Source: a virus
Reading direction: 5' to 3' (one strand)
Virus record (IMG/VR): IMGVR_UViG_3300040808_001371
Span: 1 to 22,826 of that record
Length of the DNA stretch: 22,826 nucleotides
Below are positions 1 to 20,868 of this stretch, piece after piece. The notes beneath the pieces were generated by a model. The model ran no database searches and was not told the DNA's origin. It saw only the letters and a program-made list of their open reading frames with translations. Position numbers and translations under genes: made by a program. Numbering within the stretch: position 1 is the first letter of the stretch; every line of letters starts with the position of its first letter.

Positions 1-302
1 CTTAGGTCATACTCATTTACATCGTCTCCACTAGACCCTACAACATACATCTTTAGGCCATCTGGTTTGAAGAAGAATCCTTGTGGACTTATCTCTTGAG
101 CAGCTACAGAGAAGTTCTGAAGATAAGAAGCTGAAGAAATATCCCAAGCAGTGCTTAGGTCATACTCGTTAACGTCTCGTCCACTAGCCCCTAGAATATA
201 CATCTTTAGGCCATCTGGTTTGAAGAAGACTTCTATTGGGACTGTATCTTGGGCAGAGACAGAGAAGTTCTGAAGATAAGAAGCTGAAGAAATATCCCAA
301 GC
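1..302. repeat. 153-bp tandem coding repeat
   Basis: Two tandem units begin at 1 and 154 (both start CTTAGGTCATACTC). Their most conserved part, 44 identical nt, lies at 106-149 and 259-302, a 153-bp offset equal to 51 codons. Related but more diverged units continue in the neighbouring gene up to about 1290. The window ends inside the array, which suggests either a deliberate cut or an assembly break in the repeats. Confidence 0.8.
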
Positions 303-383
303 GCCAACTGGATCACCACTACCAGCGCCACCTGAATCACCACTACCAGCCGCTCCCATCTGCATCAGTCGAGCAATACTCAT
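1..383 (-). CDS. Blade-repeat (beta-propeller-like) phage protein, partial at left edge
   Basis: The ATG at 383 shares an ATGA overlap with the stop of the upstream gene, and the frame stays open to position 1, so the C-terminus is outside the window. The product begins [15 protein letters not shown], then a short Gly/Ser/Asp linker, then at least two copies of a 51-residue repeat with the cores [13 protein letters not shown] and [20 protein letters not shown]. The repeat type (PDGxKMYVxG followed by a YDLSTAWD strand) resembles beta-propeller blades of the kind found in surface or receptor-binding proteins; that role is inferred. The first blade is entered mid-way (AWDISSASY follows the linker directly), as if an upstream half-blade were deleted. 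At DNA level the two copies are spaced exactly 153 bp and share a perfect 44-nt stretch (106-149 and 259-302). The region is richer in AT than the replication genes. Confidence 0.8.
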
Positions 384-1765
384 GCCAGTGCATCTCCTGC
401 TTGGAAGCCGTACCAGTTCGTCCCACTGTCAGTGGTGTAGAACACCAGCACATCTGTCTCACCATCAGCAGGGGCATCAGGGGCTGTGCCTGAGGGCCAA
501 TCAACAGAAGCCGGATAAGTGATAGTGGCGGGGGCTGATGTGCCTGTGGTGTATTGGTAGATGGTGTCGGTGGCAGAGCCTACGACATACATTTTCGTGC
601 CGTCAGGTTTGAAAAATACGCCATTTGGTGAAGTTTCTTGAGTGCCGACCCCAAAAGAAATGCTGTTATAGGTTGCGGTCGATATGTCCCAAGCTGCGCT
701 TAAATCATACTCATAGACGCTGTTGGCTTGATCCCCAACGACATACATCTTTGTTCCATCTGGGTTAAATAATACATCCTCTGGTGCATTGTCTTGCGTA
801 ACAACGCTGAAACTTTGAACGTATGATGCGCTAGAAATGTCCCAAGCTGTGCTTAAAGAGTATTCAAATACCGCATCGTTTGTTGCTCCAGAGACATACA
901 TCTTTGAGCCATTAGGCTTGAAAAACAAGCCTCTAGGAGTGGCAACCTGTCCAGAAACGCTGAAGTTTTGAAAGTATGATGCAGAAGATACATCCCAAGC
1001 CGTGCTTAGGTCATATTCATTCACATCATCCCCGTCAAAACCTGTTATATACATCTTGCTTCCATCAGGCTTAAAAAATAAACCAGATGCACCGAGTTCT
1101 TCGGTTGCAACACTGAAGCTCTGTAAAAAAGAGGCGCTAGTTATATCCCAAGCAGTGCTAAGGTCATATTCGTTAATGTCGTCGCCACTAGCCCCAAGGA
1201 TATACACCTTCGTGCCGTCAGGCTTAAAGAAAATGGCCTCAGGGCTTCCCTCCTGCCCCGCCACGCTAAAGCTAACACTATCATAACTCGCATTAGCTAG
1301 GTCATACCCAGACACAACATTCGTCCCAGTAACAGCCAGAGCAAAGCCAGTGGCAGTGCCAGACGCAGGTGCGTTGCTGAAGGTAAACGTAGTGTTAGCT
1401 GTGGGGGTGTATGCGAAGTAGTTGCCAGTGGAGGCGTCAATATCAGAGCCGCTGATGGTGCCGACACTGCCCTCAAGAAACGAAAGATTTGTGGCCGACG
1501 CATAAACTACGGCAGAACCGCTTAGGCTGATAGCGGCACCAGAATTGCTGCTTTCCTCGACGGAACGTGAAAGCGTAGTGTTAGAAGCAGTATATGTGCC
1601 TATTCCGATTTCCCAGTTGTTGCCGTCCTCGATGACATAGCGAACCTTGTCGCCGTCAGAAAGAACGTCGGAAAATCCTTGATAGCCTGCCTCGGCGGAG
1701 CCAAGGGTTATTGTCCCAGTACCCACAGTAGAGGTTGCGGCCTTTACTCTGTTGACCAGCTTCAT
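380..1765 (-). CDS. Tail-type protein with inserted five-blade propeller-like array
   Basis: This 461-residue protein starts with an ATGA overlap on the upstream gene. Residues 1-105 ([18 protein letters not shown] onward) are clearly paralogous to residues 1-105 of the next gene upstream: both have [17 protein letters not shown], IGxGTYTAS and LSGSAVVY. The last 45 residues ([15 protein letters not shown] to GFQAGDALA) are also paralogous to the end of that gene. Between them, about residues 150-405, sit five copies of a ~51-residue repeat with the core [13 protein letters not shown] and a following [15 protein letters not shown] strand. The protein is therefore the shorter paralogue with a blade array inserted into it. 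A propeller fold and a role at the virion surface or tail fibre are inferences. No signal peptide or membrane segment is seen. Confidence 0.85.
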
Positions 1766-2367
1766 GCCATCGCATCCCCAACTTGGAAGCCATAGTAGGT
1801 CGTGCCGCCGTCAGTGGTGTAGAATGTATATACGTCAGTCTCGCCAGACGCTGGAGCCGTGGGTGCTGTGCCACCTGCCCAATCAACCGAGGCGGGCCAA
1901 GTCACTGTCACTGTCGCAGAGGGCGTCACCTTCAGCGTGAAGCCATATGCTGTGCCAGATGCGGGCGGGTTGCTGAAAACATACGTCACGTTGGCAGATG
2001 GTGCGTCAGAAAACACGTTGCCCGTGGACAGGTCCAGAGTGCTGGAGGCGATTGTGCCGACTGTTTCCTCGCGAAAGTCTGCGTCGGTAGCCGACACATA
2101 AACCACCGCGCTGCCGGACAGGTTCAGCGCAGCATCAGCATTGGAACTCTCGCTCACAGTCCGTGTAAGGGTCGTGCCAGAGGCCGTATAGGTGCCTGTG
2201 CCGATCTCCCAGTCAGTACCGTCCTCGATCACATAGCGGACAACCTCCCCGTCAGCCACACCAGCATCAGCAAACGACTGATAGCCGCTTTCAGCGGTGC
2301 CGAGCGTGATCGTCCCCGTGCCAGTCGTGGCCGTGGACATCTTGGCGCGGTTGGCGAGAGTTACCAT
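1762..2367 (-). CDS. Phage tail-type structural protein, short paralogue
   Basis: A 201-residue protein, [19 protein letters not shown] onward, rich in Thr, Ala, Ser and Gly and predicted to be all-beta. A purine-rich AGGTGA precedes the ATG by four bases. It is the uninterrupted version of the next gene downstream: the paralogues share the N-terminal ~105 residues ([33 protein letters not shown]) and the C-terminal segment ([17 protein letters not shown] to GFQVGDAMA). Proteins of this build are common in the tail or appendage region of phages of marine alphaproteobacteria, by my recollection. Exact function unknown. It is linked to its downstream paralogue by a four-base ATGA overlap, so they are probably co-translated. 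Confidence 0.75.
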
Positions 2368-2407: not shown

Positions 2408-2779
2408 TCAGGCAGGGTCGGGGATACCGATTGCGACCGACGACAGCGTGAAGGTGTTGCCCGAGGTTACCGACTGCGAAGCCGTGAGTGAACCAGTCGC
2501 CAGCAGGCGGCTGTTGCTGGTGTCCACAATCGCATAGTGCGTGGCGGTGCCAGTGCCAGTGACCGAGCCATCGGTGATCGCATCGACGACAACCTCGCGA
2601 CCTCCACCGGAGCGATCTTGCGGTGCGCCGATGGACAGCGAAGTCGAGTTGCCAAGCGTGTAGGTGCTGGTAGCGGCGGCATAAGTCGCCGGCTCCTGCG
2701 AGCAGATGTCGATGCGGTTTGCTTCGGTGTCGAGAACGGTCAGGCCGTTGTCAAACACCCGGTCGTTAAGTGTAGCCAT
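2408..2779 (-). CDS. Small phage structural protein, function unknown
   Basis: A 123-residue Ser/Thr/Gly-rich protein starting MATLNDRVFDNGLTVLDTEA. The start is supported by AAGGAG seven bases upstream of the ATG. The composition (DTEANRIDICSQEP near the N-terminus, then TSTYTLGNSTSLSIG and SVTSGNTFTLSS) suggests a beta-rich virion protein. Its ATG overlaps the end of the upstream 69-codon gene by 14 nt, so the two are likely translationally coupled. No enzymatic motif seen. A head-completion or tail-appendage role is possible from context, not shown. Confidence 0.7.
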   Translation of the reverse strand: MATLNDRVFDNGLTVLDTEANRIDICSQEPATYAAATSTYTLGNSTSLSIGAPQDRSGGGREVVVDAITDGSVTGTGTATHYAIVDTSNSRLLATGSLTASQSVTSGNTFTLSSVAIGIPDPA

Positions 2780-6556: not shown

Positions 6557-6890
6557 CGGGCTTTACGCCACGCAGCACGATGGTTTCGGGCGGGGACATG
6601 CTGCCGTCGCTAGAGATAAAGTCGTGCCGCTCGGCCCAGCGTGCGCGGGTTTTCATCCAGAAGATTTGCGCGGCTGTGTCGCCGCCTTTGGCTTTGTTGA
6701 ATAGCGCCCCGCCGATTGTGGCGTTGGCCTTGTCCATGCCGAGATCAAGTTCATCGCGATAGTGCTTGCGCAGGGTCTTTGGGTCAATGCCTATGATGCG
6801 CGCGATGTTTTCGGACTTCGTGCCGATGGTGGCGTGTAGCTGGACTAGCTGACGCTGTTCTGGCGTTGGTTCATGCGGGTGGCGCGGCAT
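6537..6890 (-). CDS. Terminase small subunit (putative)
   Basis: A 117-residue protein. The N-terminal half (TPEQRQLVQLHATIGTKSEN, then IARIIGIDPKTLRKHYRDEL) is a helix-turn-helix of the kind that recognises the packaging site. The rest (LDLGMDKANATIGGALFNKA, then DTAAQIFWMKTRARWAERHD) is helical and typical of small terminase oligomerisation segments. The position immediately before the large terminase, with a 20-nt overlap on each side, supports the call. Length fits the family. The packaging site cannot be placed, as there is no free non-coding DNA next to it. The alternative would be a generic phage HTH protein. Confidence 0.8.
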   Translation of the reverse strand: MPRHPHEPTPEQRQLVQLHATIGTKSENIARIIGIDPKTLRKHYRDELDLGMDKANATIGGALFNKAKGGDTAAQIFWMKTRARWAERHDFISSDGSMSPPETIVLRGVKPDDASDN

Positions 6891-8124
6891 TGCTTAGTTC
6901 CTCGTATGTCTTGCCGGTTTCCTCATGTATAGCACATTCTCCGGTAAAATCCTGCCAGCGTTTGATGATGACGTCGCAGTATTTGGGGTCAAGTTCCATC
7001 ATGCGGCAGTCGCGGGCTGTCTTTTCGCAGGCGATGAGGGTGGAGCCGGAGCCGCCGAAGAGATCAAGAACGATGCCTGTATTTTTTGCAACTATTGCAA
7101 TGCCGCGCTCTGGCAAATCAACAGGAAAGCAGGCTTTGTGATTTTCTGCTTGCGCACCTGTGTTGCTTACTTGCCAAAAATTGCTTGTTACTTCCTTGAC
7201 CGCTACAGGCTGCTTGTTTGTTGAGAACACATAGATAGGTTCCCAATCTCTCATCAATGATCCTTTGAATGGAATTGTGCTGCTTTTTTTCCAGCATATT
7301 TGCTCAACAAGATATGGAAGCCTGCCCGATATTTGCTGGATGTATTCAAATCTTGATTTAGCGTTATAGCTGACGTTCCAGAAGATGAAGCCATCAGTTA
7401 CGGCAAAGCATACCTCCAAAACAGATGCGGCAAAATCAACATAAGCCTGAGATGGTAGGTTATCAGAATATCCGTCTGCATACAGCTTCACGCTTTTTTT
7501 CTTGTTGAAAATGTCTCCCTGACCAGCCTTGGCGTCTGCATTATACGGCGGGGATGTAAACACCATGTCCGCCTTGCGCCCATCCATCAGCTTCTCAACC
7601 GCATCAATGCTGGTGCTATCTCCGCACATCAGCCGATGACGCCCCAGAAGCCACACGTCGCCCTCAACCGTGACAGGCTGCACTGGAACGTCTGGCACCG
7701 CGTCCTCATCGGTCAGGCCCTCGGTGACTTCCTCGGGAAACAGCGCCTGGATTTCGTCTACATCAAAGCCGGTCAGGGATAGATCAAAATCCATCTCTTG
7801 CAGGTCTGAGATTTCGAGCGCGAGAAGTTCGTTGTCCCATTCGGCCAGTTCAGCCACCTTATTGACGCTGAGCCGGAAGGCTTTGATCTGCGCCTCGCTC
7901 ATGTCATCGGCGAGGACAACTGGCACCTCGGTGAGGCCCAGCTTTTTGGCGGCTTTCAGGCGAAGATGCCCGTCAACCACGGTGCCGTCACTCTTGGCGC
8001 AGATTGGCACGCGGAAGCCGAACTCACGGATGGCCGCTGCTACCTTATCAACTGCGTGATCGTTTTTGCGCGGGTTTCGCGCGTAATCAACGCAGCGCTC
8101 AATGGGCCAATGCTCAAACTGCAT
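6871..8124 (-). CDS. ParB-like nuclease domain/DNA methyltransferase fusion
   Basis: A 417-residue protein. Residues ~1-90 are ParB/Srx-like: CVDYARNPRKND, AAIREFGFRVPI, and GTVVDGHLRLKAAKKLG. After a linker the methyltransferase follows, with catalytic motif IV TSPPYN at 190-195 and the SAM-binding DLFGGSGST at 354-362. That order (motif IV before motif I) is the beta group, so the target recognition domain lies between them, at about 197-350. The base modified (N6-adenine or N4-cytosine) cannot be read with confidence. It probably methylates phage DNA against host restriction. The stretch for residues ~197-350 (positions ~7070-7533) is visibly richer in AT than both flanks, suggesting domain replacement. 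The HNH gene stop overlaps its start by 11 nt. Confidence 0.9.
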   Translation of the reverse strand: MQFEHWPIERCVDYARNPRKNDHAVDKVAAAIREFGFRVPICAKSDGTVVDGHLRLKAAKKLGLTEVPVVLADDMSEAQIKAFRLSVNKVAELAEWDNELLALEISDLQEMDFDLSLTGFDVDEIQALFPEEVTEGLTDEDAVPDVPVQPVTVEGDVWLLGRHRLMCGDSTSIDAVEKLMDGRKADMVFTSPPYNADAKAGQGDIFNKKKSVKLYADGYSDNLPSQAYVDFAASVLEVCFAVTDGFIFWNVSYNAKSRFEYIQQISGRLPYLVEQICWKKSSTIPFKGSLMRDWEPIYVFSTNKQPVAVKEVTSNFWQVSNTGAQAENHKACFPVDLPERGIAIVAKNTGIVLDLFGGSGSTLIACEKTARDCRMMELDPKYCDVIIKRWQDFTGECAIHEETGKTYEELSNAAPPA

Positions 8125-8647
8125 TTTTAACTTCCTTTAGCTTGACAGGGGGAACGCTCACTGTTCGCCACGTTTTCCCAGTTACTGCGTCGTATGCTGT
8201 CAGCTTCTTTAACCCCATGCCTTCAGCGACACTCATGAATGGCTCACCAGCGGCAACCCTCAATCTCATCTCAGATACCAAGGCTTCTGTTAGTTTTGCA
8301 TTGTGATGCTTTTCACCAGGATGCGCACCAAAGGCGGTTCCGTGCTTATACCTATCATGGGCGTTTTCAAGCCTTGTAGCCCAGCGCAGGTTTGAAACGC
8401 AGTTGTTCAAGTTGTTCCCATCGTTGTGTGCAACGTCAAGATTTTCCCATCCTTCTGGAAGACCAATCCATGCCATTGCCACAAGCCGGTGAACGTTTCT
8501 CCAGTGATATTTTCCAGACCTGTAAAGCCCAACACTCTTGTATCCAAATCGGTGCTTTGGCTTCAAAATCTTCTGAAACCGTTTGCTTTTGACATCGCCA
8601 GTTGCGCTGACCTCATAGCCATCAAAAGTTGGTATTGCCTTGAACAT
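8114..8647 (-). CDS. HNH homing-type endonuclease with NUMOD4 domain
   Basis: A 177-residue protein. The start chosen is the ATG at 8647 because GGAGG lies six bases before it; a longer in-frame version to 8680 has no such site. The N-terminus MFKAIPTFDGYEVSATGDVK is NUMOD4-like. The HNH core is visible in YHWRNVHRLVAMAWIG, LDVAHNDGNNLNNCVSNLRW and TRLENAHDRY, with histidines, Asp and Asn at the expected places for the beta-beta-alpha metal site. A C-terminal helix-turn-helix-like part (AKLTEALVSEMRLRV and SVAEGMGLKK) may bind DNA. Free-standing enzymes of this type are usually selfish homing endonucleases. GC is lower than in the neighbours, and the gene lies between a methyltransferase and the remnant of another, which fits mobility. 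Confidence 0.88.
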   Translation of the reverse strand: MFKAIPTFDGYEVSATGDVKSKRFQKILKPKHRFGYKSVGLYRSGKYHWRNVHRLVAMAWIGLPEGWENLDVAHNDGNNLNNCVSNLRWATRLENAHDRYKHGTAFGAHPGEKHHNAKLTEALVSEMRLRVAAGEPFMSVAEGMGLKKLTAYDAVTGKTWRTVSVPPVKLKEVKNAV

Positions 8648-8774
8648 TGATTGCCTCCACTTCACAGGCACAATAACCAAACTTTAGCCAGTTCGCAAAC
8701 CTAAACCGAACTTCCAAGGCATACGGAATGAGATCAGCTACAGAAATTGTTTTATACGCGGGAAAATCACTCAT
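8622..8774 (-). pseudogene. N-terminal remnant of a second ParB-like methyltransferase gene
   Basis: A 50-codon frame starting at the ATG at 8774, coupled by an ATGA overlap to the upstream gene and preceded by GGAGGA. The first 19 residues, MSDFPAYKTISVADLIPYA, look like the N-terminus of phage ParB-domain methyltransferases, which normally go on with a basic RNxRTH box. Here the sequence diverges at about 8717 into an unrelated, Phe/Trp/Cys-containing tail that ends at 8622, after overlapping the HNH start by 26 nt. I read this as a truncated gene cut by arrival of the HNH/methyltransferase segment. It could still be translated as a short peptide. Confidence 0.55.
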
Positions 8775-9073
8775 TCCTCCGCCACCTCTGCTGCAAGGGC
8801 GCATTCGTATTCGATGCCAGTGTAAGCCATTCCATCGACATAGCTGTCGCGGTGCGTTGGGTTGTGGAACCGGCGTGCGATCTTGGTGGCTTGGTGCAGG
8901 AGTGCGACTTCGCGGGCTGTGATGTCGCGTCCGGTGATGGCGTTGAAGATGTTGGCGATGTGCTGATGGTTTGCGACGGGATCGCCGTAGGCGCGGTTCC
9001 GGTCGCCACCTGTTAGGTCTGCCGCGTCCTCAAGGCAGGCCATGCGCGGTGGAGGGATGTCGTCGTGGGTCAT
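8771..9073 (-). CDS. DUF6378-like conserved phage protein
   Basis: A 100-residue protein. The start at 9073 is chosen because AGGAGG stands six bases upstream; an in-frame ATG at 9094 lacks this. The body carries TGGDRNRAYGDPVANHQHIA, IFNAITGRDITAREVALLHQ and RDSYVDGMAYTGIEYECALA, a pattern I recognise as a small domain common in phages and assigned to DUF6378. The function is unknown. Predicted helical, soluble. It is the second gene of the leftward operon and is coupled by an ATGA overlap to the truncated reading frame that follows. Confidence 0.75.
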   Translation of the reverse strand: MTHDDIPPPRMACLEDAADLTGGDRNRAYGDPVANHQHIANIFNAITGRDITAREVALLHQATKIARRFHNPTHRDSYVDGMAYTGIEYECALAAEVAEE

Positions 9074-20085: not shown

Positions 20086-20868
20086 TTATTCCTTTTCATT
20101 TTTTGACGCCATGCAAACCTCGTGGCTTTCAGCATGTTCATCCCAGACTTCTGACCAGCAATTGTCGTCAAGAAACTGCCGGACTTGAAAGAATGGGATG
20201 GCCAGACCAAGATGCCCGTTGCCCGGCACGCCAGCCGCAGGCACGCCGATTAGTTCACCAGACGAATTAAATAGAGCGCCGCCGCTATTGCCGCCCGTGA
20301 TGCCCGCGTCGATCTGAATGAATGGCACCTCTGCTTCTGCCCACGAAACTCGAAACATTCGATTGGTGGATGAAATCACACCTCGCGTGACGGTGGCATC
20401 AAGGCCGAGCGGGTTGCCGACAACAGTGACCTCCTCGCCGCGCTGCACCACATCGCCCGAAAATACGGTGGCAGCAATGGAGTTTGGCAACTCTGCCCGA
20501 ACCTGAAGCAAGGCCAGATCACTTTCCTGCCAACGGGCGATAAGCTGGGCTTTATATCGCGCCTCACCGACAAGCCTGTAATCCTCATACATTCGTTGCG
20601 ACACGTCCATGTCGCGCAGTTCTTCGACCTGCTTTTGCACGACCGTGCCATCGTCCTCGACCACTTCCTTGCGGCGCTTGATGACAGCGTCTCCGATGCA
20701 GTGATGATTGGTCAGGATCAGCCTGTGTTCGAGCGAGATCAGGGTGCCGCTGCATCCCCTGCCGACGATGAAGTTGGCGCTGTTGATCGTCTTGTTCATG
20801 TCATCAACAGTCCAGGCCAAGGCTGGGGCGGCAAGACATACGGCCAAGGCCGCTATGCGCATGATCAT
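20086..20868 (-). CDS. Secreted trypsin-like serine protease
   Basis: A 260-residue protein with AAGGAGG six bases before the ATG. Residues 1-18 are a signal peptide (basic start, hydrophobic core, ALA before Trp). The catalytic triad is complete: H56 in ILTNHHC, D117 in ESDLALLQV, and S195 in TGGNSGGAL. C39 and C57 flank the His as in chymotrypsin-fold enzymes; C237 and C252 may form a second bond. There is no PDZ domain, so it is not an HtrA-type protein. The protein should reach the periplasm. It follows the o-spanin gene by 16 nt on the same strand, so it is probably expressed late, with lysis genes. Roles in envelope breakdown or protein degradation at lysis are inferred. A cellular gene origin is possible. 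Confidence 0.9.
   Translation of the reverse strand: MIMRIAALAVCLAAPALAWTVDDMNKTINSANFIVGRGCSGTLISLEHRLILTNHHCIGDAVIKRRKEVVEDDGTVVQKQVEELRDMDVSQRMYEDYRLVGEARYKAQLIARWQESDLALLQVRAELPNSIAATVFSGDVVQRGEEVTVVGNPLGLDATVTRGVISSTNRMFRVSWAEAEVPFIQIDAGITGGNSGGALFNSSGELIGVPAAGVPGNGHLGLAIPFFQVRQFLDDNCWSEVWDEHAESHEVCMASKNEKE

Follow-up and report, generated by a model that had tools for sequence, protein, structure and literature searches.

The locus described here raises the question of how two adjacent phage genes came to share both of their ends while only one of them carries an array of repeats in between, and what that array might do. The window, a stretch of 22,826 nucleotides, was a fragment from the genome of an uncultivated marine tailed phage (IMG/VR record IMGVR_UViG_3300040808_001371). 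The gene order on its minus strand was terminase small and large subunits, portal, MuF-like head protein, P0005, P0003, P0002 and a third gene (P0006). The open reading frames (ORF) of P0003 and P0002 were confirmed on the minus strand and overlapped by 4 nt (Table 1). With a probability of roughly 0.7, P0002 was interpreted as a subunit of a phage fibre or adhesin consisting of an N domain, a beta-sandwich-like carrier and a five-bladed propeller lodged in a hairpin of the carrier, the propeller being an exchangeable receptor-binding tip. P0003 is a carrier of the same type whose site is unoccupied.

Table 1. Features of the propeller gene cluster, in window positions
Feature	Positions	Strand	Basis
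P0006 (third gene) start, free-standing propeller, cut by contig end	3..383	-	complete in contig L003
P0002, 461 aa, N-Ca-propeller-Cb	380..1765	-	translation; model pLDDT 88.1
P0002 Cb, second carrier half (aa 410-461)	380..538	-	83% identity to L021 carrier; tail fibre PHROG 9017
P0002 five-bladed propeller insert and linkers (aa 147-409)	539..1327	-	alignment; profile; model; fold match
P0002 blade 5 (aa 363-409)	539..679	-	repeat starts; predicted strands
P0002 blade 4 (aa 312-362)	680..832	-	repeat starts; predicted strands
P0002 blade 3 (aa 261-311)	833..985	-	repeat starts; predicted strands
P0002 blade 2 (aa 210-260)	986..1138	-	repeat starts; predicted strands
P0002 blade 1 (aa 158-209)	1139..1294	-	repeat starts; predicted strands
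P0002 Ca, first carrier half (aa 100-146)	1328..1468	-	92% identity to L021 Ca-b5-Cb protein
P0002 N domain (aa 1-98)	1472..1765	-	alignment; N-domain profile
P0003, 201 aa, N domain and empty carrier (N-Ca-Cb)	1762..2367	-	translation; PHROG tail fibre matches; model
P0003 carrier (aa 100-201), docking hairpin unfilled	1762..2070	-	95% identity to blade-free carriers of other phages
P0003 hairpin turn P149-S150-A151, empty docking site	1915..1923	-	junction comparison; model strands
P0003 N domain (aa 1-98)	2074..2367	-	alignment; N-domain profile; fold matches
P0005, small beta-rich protein, upstream of cluster	2408..2779	-	PHROG 240 head protein

The two proteins aligned as homologues at either end, with 62% identity over 153 residues (E = 3e-49) and 71% over the final 52 (E = 3e-21), as a sequence-only reading of the window had proposed. 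That reading had put the common N-terminal stretch at about 105 residues, which the alignment lengthened to about 146 (an N domain of about 98 residues plus the first carrier half), and the common C-terminal stretch at about 45 residues, which was indeed shared and measured 52. Because the shared N-terminal part extended into the C-terminal carrier domain and took in its first half, the extra segment of P0002 was placed inside one domain and not between two. Exactly five repeats, each 51-52 residues long and beginning at aa 158, 210, 261, 312 and 363, were counted in this segment, in agreement with the five blades of about 51 residues anticipated at approximately 540-1320.

An AlphaFold2 model of P0002, built with 63 aligned sequences, predicted 20 strands in the insert, arranged as five blades of four strands and closed (pLDDT 97-98), with the carrier at pLDDT of about 90 and the N domain at about 65-70. 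The model of P0003 had two beta domains (mean pLDDT 87.2). In the predictions of both proteins, the propeller-like array was thus a self-contained closed domain set into a host protein, and not an integral part of one fold common to both. The best matches of the propeller in the PDB were the C-terminal domain of YjiK (3qqz) and the glutaminyl cyclases 3mbr and 3nol (Z 21-23, rmsd 2.6-2.8), and among solved structures the archaeal surface-layer protein 1l0q matched best by sequence (family profile, E = 3e-16). P0002 also passed the Pfam cut-offs for SGL (44.3, cut-off 26.3) and Lactonase (29.7, cut-off 21.7). These models, together with the enzymes among the best fold matches, would fit a lactonase-like or glutaminyl-cyclase-like enzyme acting on the host surface or on metabolites. 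Such an activity is very unlikely, as the loops varied strongly and the positions conserved most strongly (F, D, G, Y, A and W) looked like a structural repeat signature common to all blades, and not like one active site.

Profiles of the N domain, of the two carrier halves (Ca and Cb) and of the blade were run over all ORF of 157 loci, and the blade profile matched in 193 ORF of related loci. The number of blades was 5, 10 or 15 in 149 of the 159 complete blade ORF (5 in 93, 10 in 55 and 15 in 1), which argues that the five-repeat array did not arise by chance. The same numbers held for 127 of 140 distinct ORF in phages, 62 of 72 in cells, and 47 of the 57 clusters formed at 60% identity. Proteins with either a carrier or blades included Ca-Cb (66), b5 (51), N-Ca-Cb (24) and b10 (17). 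Carriers were combined with blades as Ca-b5-Cb (27), b5-Ca-b5-Cb (19), Ca-b10-Cb (10), N-Ca-b10-Cb (9), b5-Ca-Cb (9) and N-Ca-b5-Cb (4). Both the blade-free and the blade-containing forms that the sequence-only reading suggested looking for therefore occurred in related phages. Among cultured phages, 5 blades were counted in ICBM2, 10 in CRP-738 and 15 each in CRP-2, CRP-9 and CRP-13. Several numbers that were not multiples of five (L098, L042 and L055) likely resulted from assembly collapse or frameshift; the difference in length between L098 (444 aa) and L097 (546 aa) was exactly two blades. Some cellular and divergent ORF also departed from the fives (28, 6, 4, 3 and 2 blades), perhaps in part due to missed blades.

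The third gene was interrupted by the end of the contig, which stopped inside its repeat array (window 1-383), likely at an assembly break. Contig L003 was identical to the window over 8.4 kb and extended past its end, and there the complete gene (7982-8827) encoded a protein of 281 aa that lacked a carrier and had exactly five repeats of 51 residues; TRF gave 5.0 copies of 153 nt with 88% matches. This strict closure at five, in neighbouring genes whose repeats are either recent (88% DNA matches) or old and divergent, provides a natural series for the origin of propellers, which bears on how repeat amplification gives rise to them.

Homologues, mostly with five blades, were also found in cellular genome bins and single cells (L237-L315) of SAR11, Patescibacteria, Bacteroidota and archaea; some of these contigs may be viral. 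A Reichenbachiella protein of 2947 aa (L307:1252-10095) had 28 detected blades of the same family.

The docking site was a beta-hairpin of the C-terminal carrier domain. P0003 had the three-residue turn PSA at this point and so displays the empty state, as had been suggested for the shorter protein. Propeller-bearing carriers broke after FTLKVT, where empty carriers read PSA, and filled carriers read FTLKVT-GANVxSGYDLAN-[blades]-ATFTYP, at the same position in dozens of sequences. Two orthologous carriers, L037:66-428 without a propeller and L022:3609-4769 with one, could be aligned to either side of the insert, which measured about 0.8 kb. Other domains were observed at or near the site: one carrier (L082:7857-9143) had a DUF7483 domain at the docking site that elsewhere holds propellers, and another carrier (L015:743-1756) was immediately preceded by a laminin-G-like domain, so that guests have a second position before Ca.

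The carrier of P0002 was closest to a filled carrier of another phage (L021; 88% overall, 92% in Ca and 83% in Cb) and only 66% identical to that of P0003, which ranked 18th (index 17) by closeness among 130 carriers. The carrier of P0003 was in turn 95% identical to empty carriers of other phages. The sequence-only reading had held that the 201-aa gene was duplicated and that the repeat array was inserted into one of the copies in this lineage. The adjacency of two genes with both ends in common agrees with this history, as does a tree joining both N domains, which was no worse than the free tree. The comparisons spoke against it: beyond the carrier identities, a clade of the P0002 and P0003 carriers was rejected in a tree of 31 rows (p-AU = 0.0003), and the N domains were 69% identical to each other and up to 75% to those of other phages. 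Local duplication followed by insertion is therefore distinctly unlikely. A recent duplicate was rejected on carrier identity, though a quick tree of 130 rows did not reject the joint carrier clade (AU p = 0.17). Since its carrier grouped with propeller-bearing carriers of other phages, P0002 probably arrived with the site already filled, and from these comparisons it is best read as a filled carrier of another lineage joined to an N domain, and not as a copy of P0003 with a local insert.

Whole propellers were exchanged between near-identical carriers. In pairs with carriers 92-99% identical (synonymous differences, pS, 0.04-0.25), the propellers were only 45-61% identical (pS 0.53-0.81). Measured in 60-nt steps, DNA identity stood at 93-100% before the site, fell to about 50% within the propeller and returned to 95-100% beyond it. 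Contigs L037 and L157 were 95% identical before the cluster and 97% after it, and differed in their propellers. Conversely, propellers 94-95% identical were carried by different genes (L038:422 and L157:7442; L048 and L063). In a few pairs with 92-100% carrier identity the propellers were near-identical too, and the contigs matched completely or almost completely along their whole length, which would be expected of very close relatives. Divergence of the propeller within each gene through point mutation and selection, with no replacement, would account for the hypervariable propeller loops and is highly improbable: synonymous sites approached saturation in the propellers and not in the carriers, the borders were sharp, and near-identical propellers occurred on different genes.

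A similar mosaic was apparent in the sequences of the cultured roseophages CRP-2, CRP-9 and CRP-13, in which the scaffold pieces of a 1.2-kaa protein were mostly 75-100% identical and the propellers mostly 20-45%. An assembly artefact was considered and rejected as a general cause of the mosaic, given that independent contigs agreed (L016/L017, L022/L042 and L070-L072) and that the complete genomes of the cultured CRP phages had the same kind of pattern. Judging from these comparisons, related phages keep the carrier almost unchanged and exchange, add or lose the propeller. More tentatively, with somewhat less than an even chance, the cluster may belong to a general system of plug-in domains by which marine phages contact their hosts, in which fixed docking sites on carriers, one inside the hairpin and one just before the carrier domain, would receive whole guest domains swapped by recombination in the conserved coding sequence of the carrier. 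The guests would be five-bladed propellers, single or doubled, laminin-G-like lectin domains and DUF7483; with up to four genes in tandem, one virion may display several different tips simultaneously.

The proposal of the sequence-only reading that the protein belonged to the tail and diversified a receptor contact gained indirect support. Matches to the tail fibre PHROG 9017 and 7760 (E = 1e-7 to 2e-4) fell mainly in the carrier domain. A homologue of the tail-fibre assembly chaperone (Phage_tail_APC) was present in 101 of 133 related loci and was the first gene downstream in 82, and the homologue in the isolate ICBM2 sat in a tail-fibre module. In contig L003, the third gene was followed by P0007 (Phage_tail_APC, E = 2.7e-20), a repeat-rich protein and a BppU_N-type protein, and further on, as read by eye, by an apparent prohead protease and then an HK97-type capsid protein. 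The position of the cluster between the MuF-like gene and the apparent protease and major capsid genes was odd for tail fibres and counts against a tail-fibre reading. It would suit a fibre or decoration of the head (capsid) that bears this swappable propeller, as would the match of P0005 to a head-protein PHROG and the best fold match of the carrier, the capsid spike of Pa223 (Z 6.7). The other fold matches of the carrier were the KP1 baseplate, CBA120 TSP4 and T4 gp9, and those of the N domain were best with parts of the JBD30 and Chi tail tips and with a GP4 portal-tail chain (Z about 7); the matches of both domains, taken from models, were weak (Z 5-7) and only suggestive. The search of the carrier sequence against solved structures gave no match. 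A head fibre is rather unlikely with the chaperone gene adjacent in the window phage and its homologues in most related loci, a BppU_N baseplate-type protein nearby and the tail-fibre module of ICBM2. P0005 also had a weak, sub-threshold match to Gp80 fibre I, its homologues occurred in 21 loci on the upstream side of propeller genes, no more than a few genes away, and its search against solved structures returned chance-level matches only.

For the receptor-binding tip, loop entropy was 2.61 bits on the face with the A-B and C-D loops and 1.00 bits on the face with the D-A and B-C loops (p = 6e-5), the faces being assigned from strand order (blades A-B-C-D) as a topological inference. High loop entropy could partly reflect relaxed constraint. 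By that assignment, both ends of the propeller would exit on the D-A loop face (start of strand A and end of strand D), and because this D-A/B-C face was nearly invariant, the conserved face would meet the carrier and the variable one would point outward. One variable face, the chaperone homologues in related loci and the tail-fibre module of ICBM2 together suggest a receptor-binding tip. In the proposed mechanism, the N domain probably attaches to the virion or to another part of the fibre, and the variable A-B and C-D loops would lie on the far side from the carrier, where they would face the host cell and bind a surface ligand, probably a glycan by analogy with the propeller of phi11 Gp45. 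Exchange would rely on homologous recombination within conserved blocks of the carrier (about 300-650 nt) and would replace the tip with the rest of the fibre undisturbed; the neighbouring free-standing propeller gene may be part of the same device. The propeller would not simply specify the host strain, since CRP-2, CRP-9 and CRP-13 infect the same strain, FZCC0023, and their propellers were about 20-45% identical in most stretches.

How phages change their receptor contact is a central question, and the known exchanges mostly replace the end of the fibre. The paired cases here, in metagenomes and in cultured phages of one host strain, differed mainly in an internal module, so that the contribution of one domain to adsorption becomes directly testable.

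Propellers of the YVTN and lactonase types are seven-bladed (Pfam names Lactonase as 7-bladed). The P0002 family had the PDG-K-Y repeat signature of YVTN, lactonase and SGL propellers (1l0q), but closed at five blades, with relatives in multiples of five. Tachylectin-2, with five similar blades around a ring, was not among the fold matches listed for the P0002 propeller, a result that excludes nothing. In the phage vB_LenP_ICBM2 of Lentibacter sp. SH36, gp51 resembled P0002 in having a split beta domain (by eye) and five blades after a short N-terminus, and lay between two tail fibre assembly genes; it was 43-47% identical, with another N-terminus, and is annotated as a hypothetical protein.

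Five-bladed receptor-binding propellers and modular fibre exchange are already known. The staphylococcal (S. aureus) phage phi11 has a five-bladed receptor-binding propeller in Gp45, placed after a helical stem, with an N-terminal strand closing the last blade, a cavity of the size of GlcNAc and 3nol as top DALI match, and the P2 protein of PRD1 has a distorted five-bladed one (PMC4901313). Like phi11 Gp45 (PF21311, Phage_RBD_prop), P0002 had five blades and was near 3nol in fold; unlike it, the blades of P0002 were near-identical, of 51 residues and four consecutive strands, inserted in a hairpin and exchanged between carriers. The PF21311 family model did not match P0002, and its best score among relatives was sub-threshold (20.8 bits, cut-off 23.7) in the two-propeller L006. 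Modular tail fibres of phages and eCIS pair a conserved anchor with an exchangeable receptor-binding module (PMC12923769), as does the P0002 family, but the exchange in the latter was internal, the module being lodged in a hairpin and flanked on either side by conserved coding sequence. Neither the family itself nor its internal docking site, the swapping of closed propellers there or the restriction to fives was found in the open-licence literature searched.

Other genes were also noticed. P0008 (L003:9374-10600) had repeats of about 20 residues (ITTGQPTVGASSIAQVHDL...), and its homologues were second downstream of propeller genes in about 31 loci. A minus-strand gene of the window (20086-20868) encoded a peptidase domain of the trypsin-like type (Trypsin_2, E = 6e-26), here in a phage genome, and another region (6871-8124), adjoining the terminase genes, encoded a ParB-like domain fused to a DNA methyltransferase.
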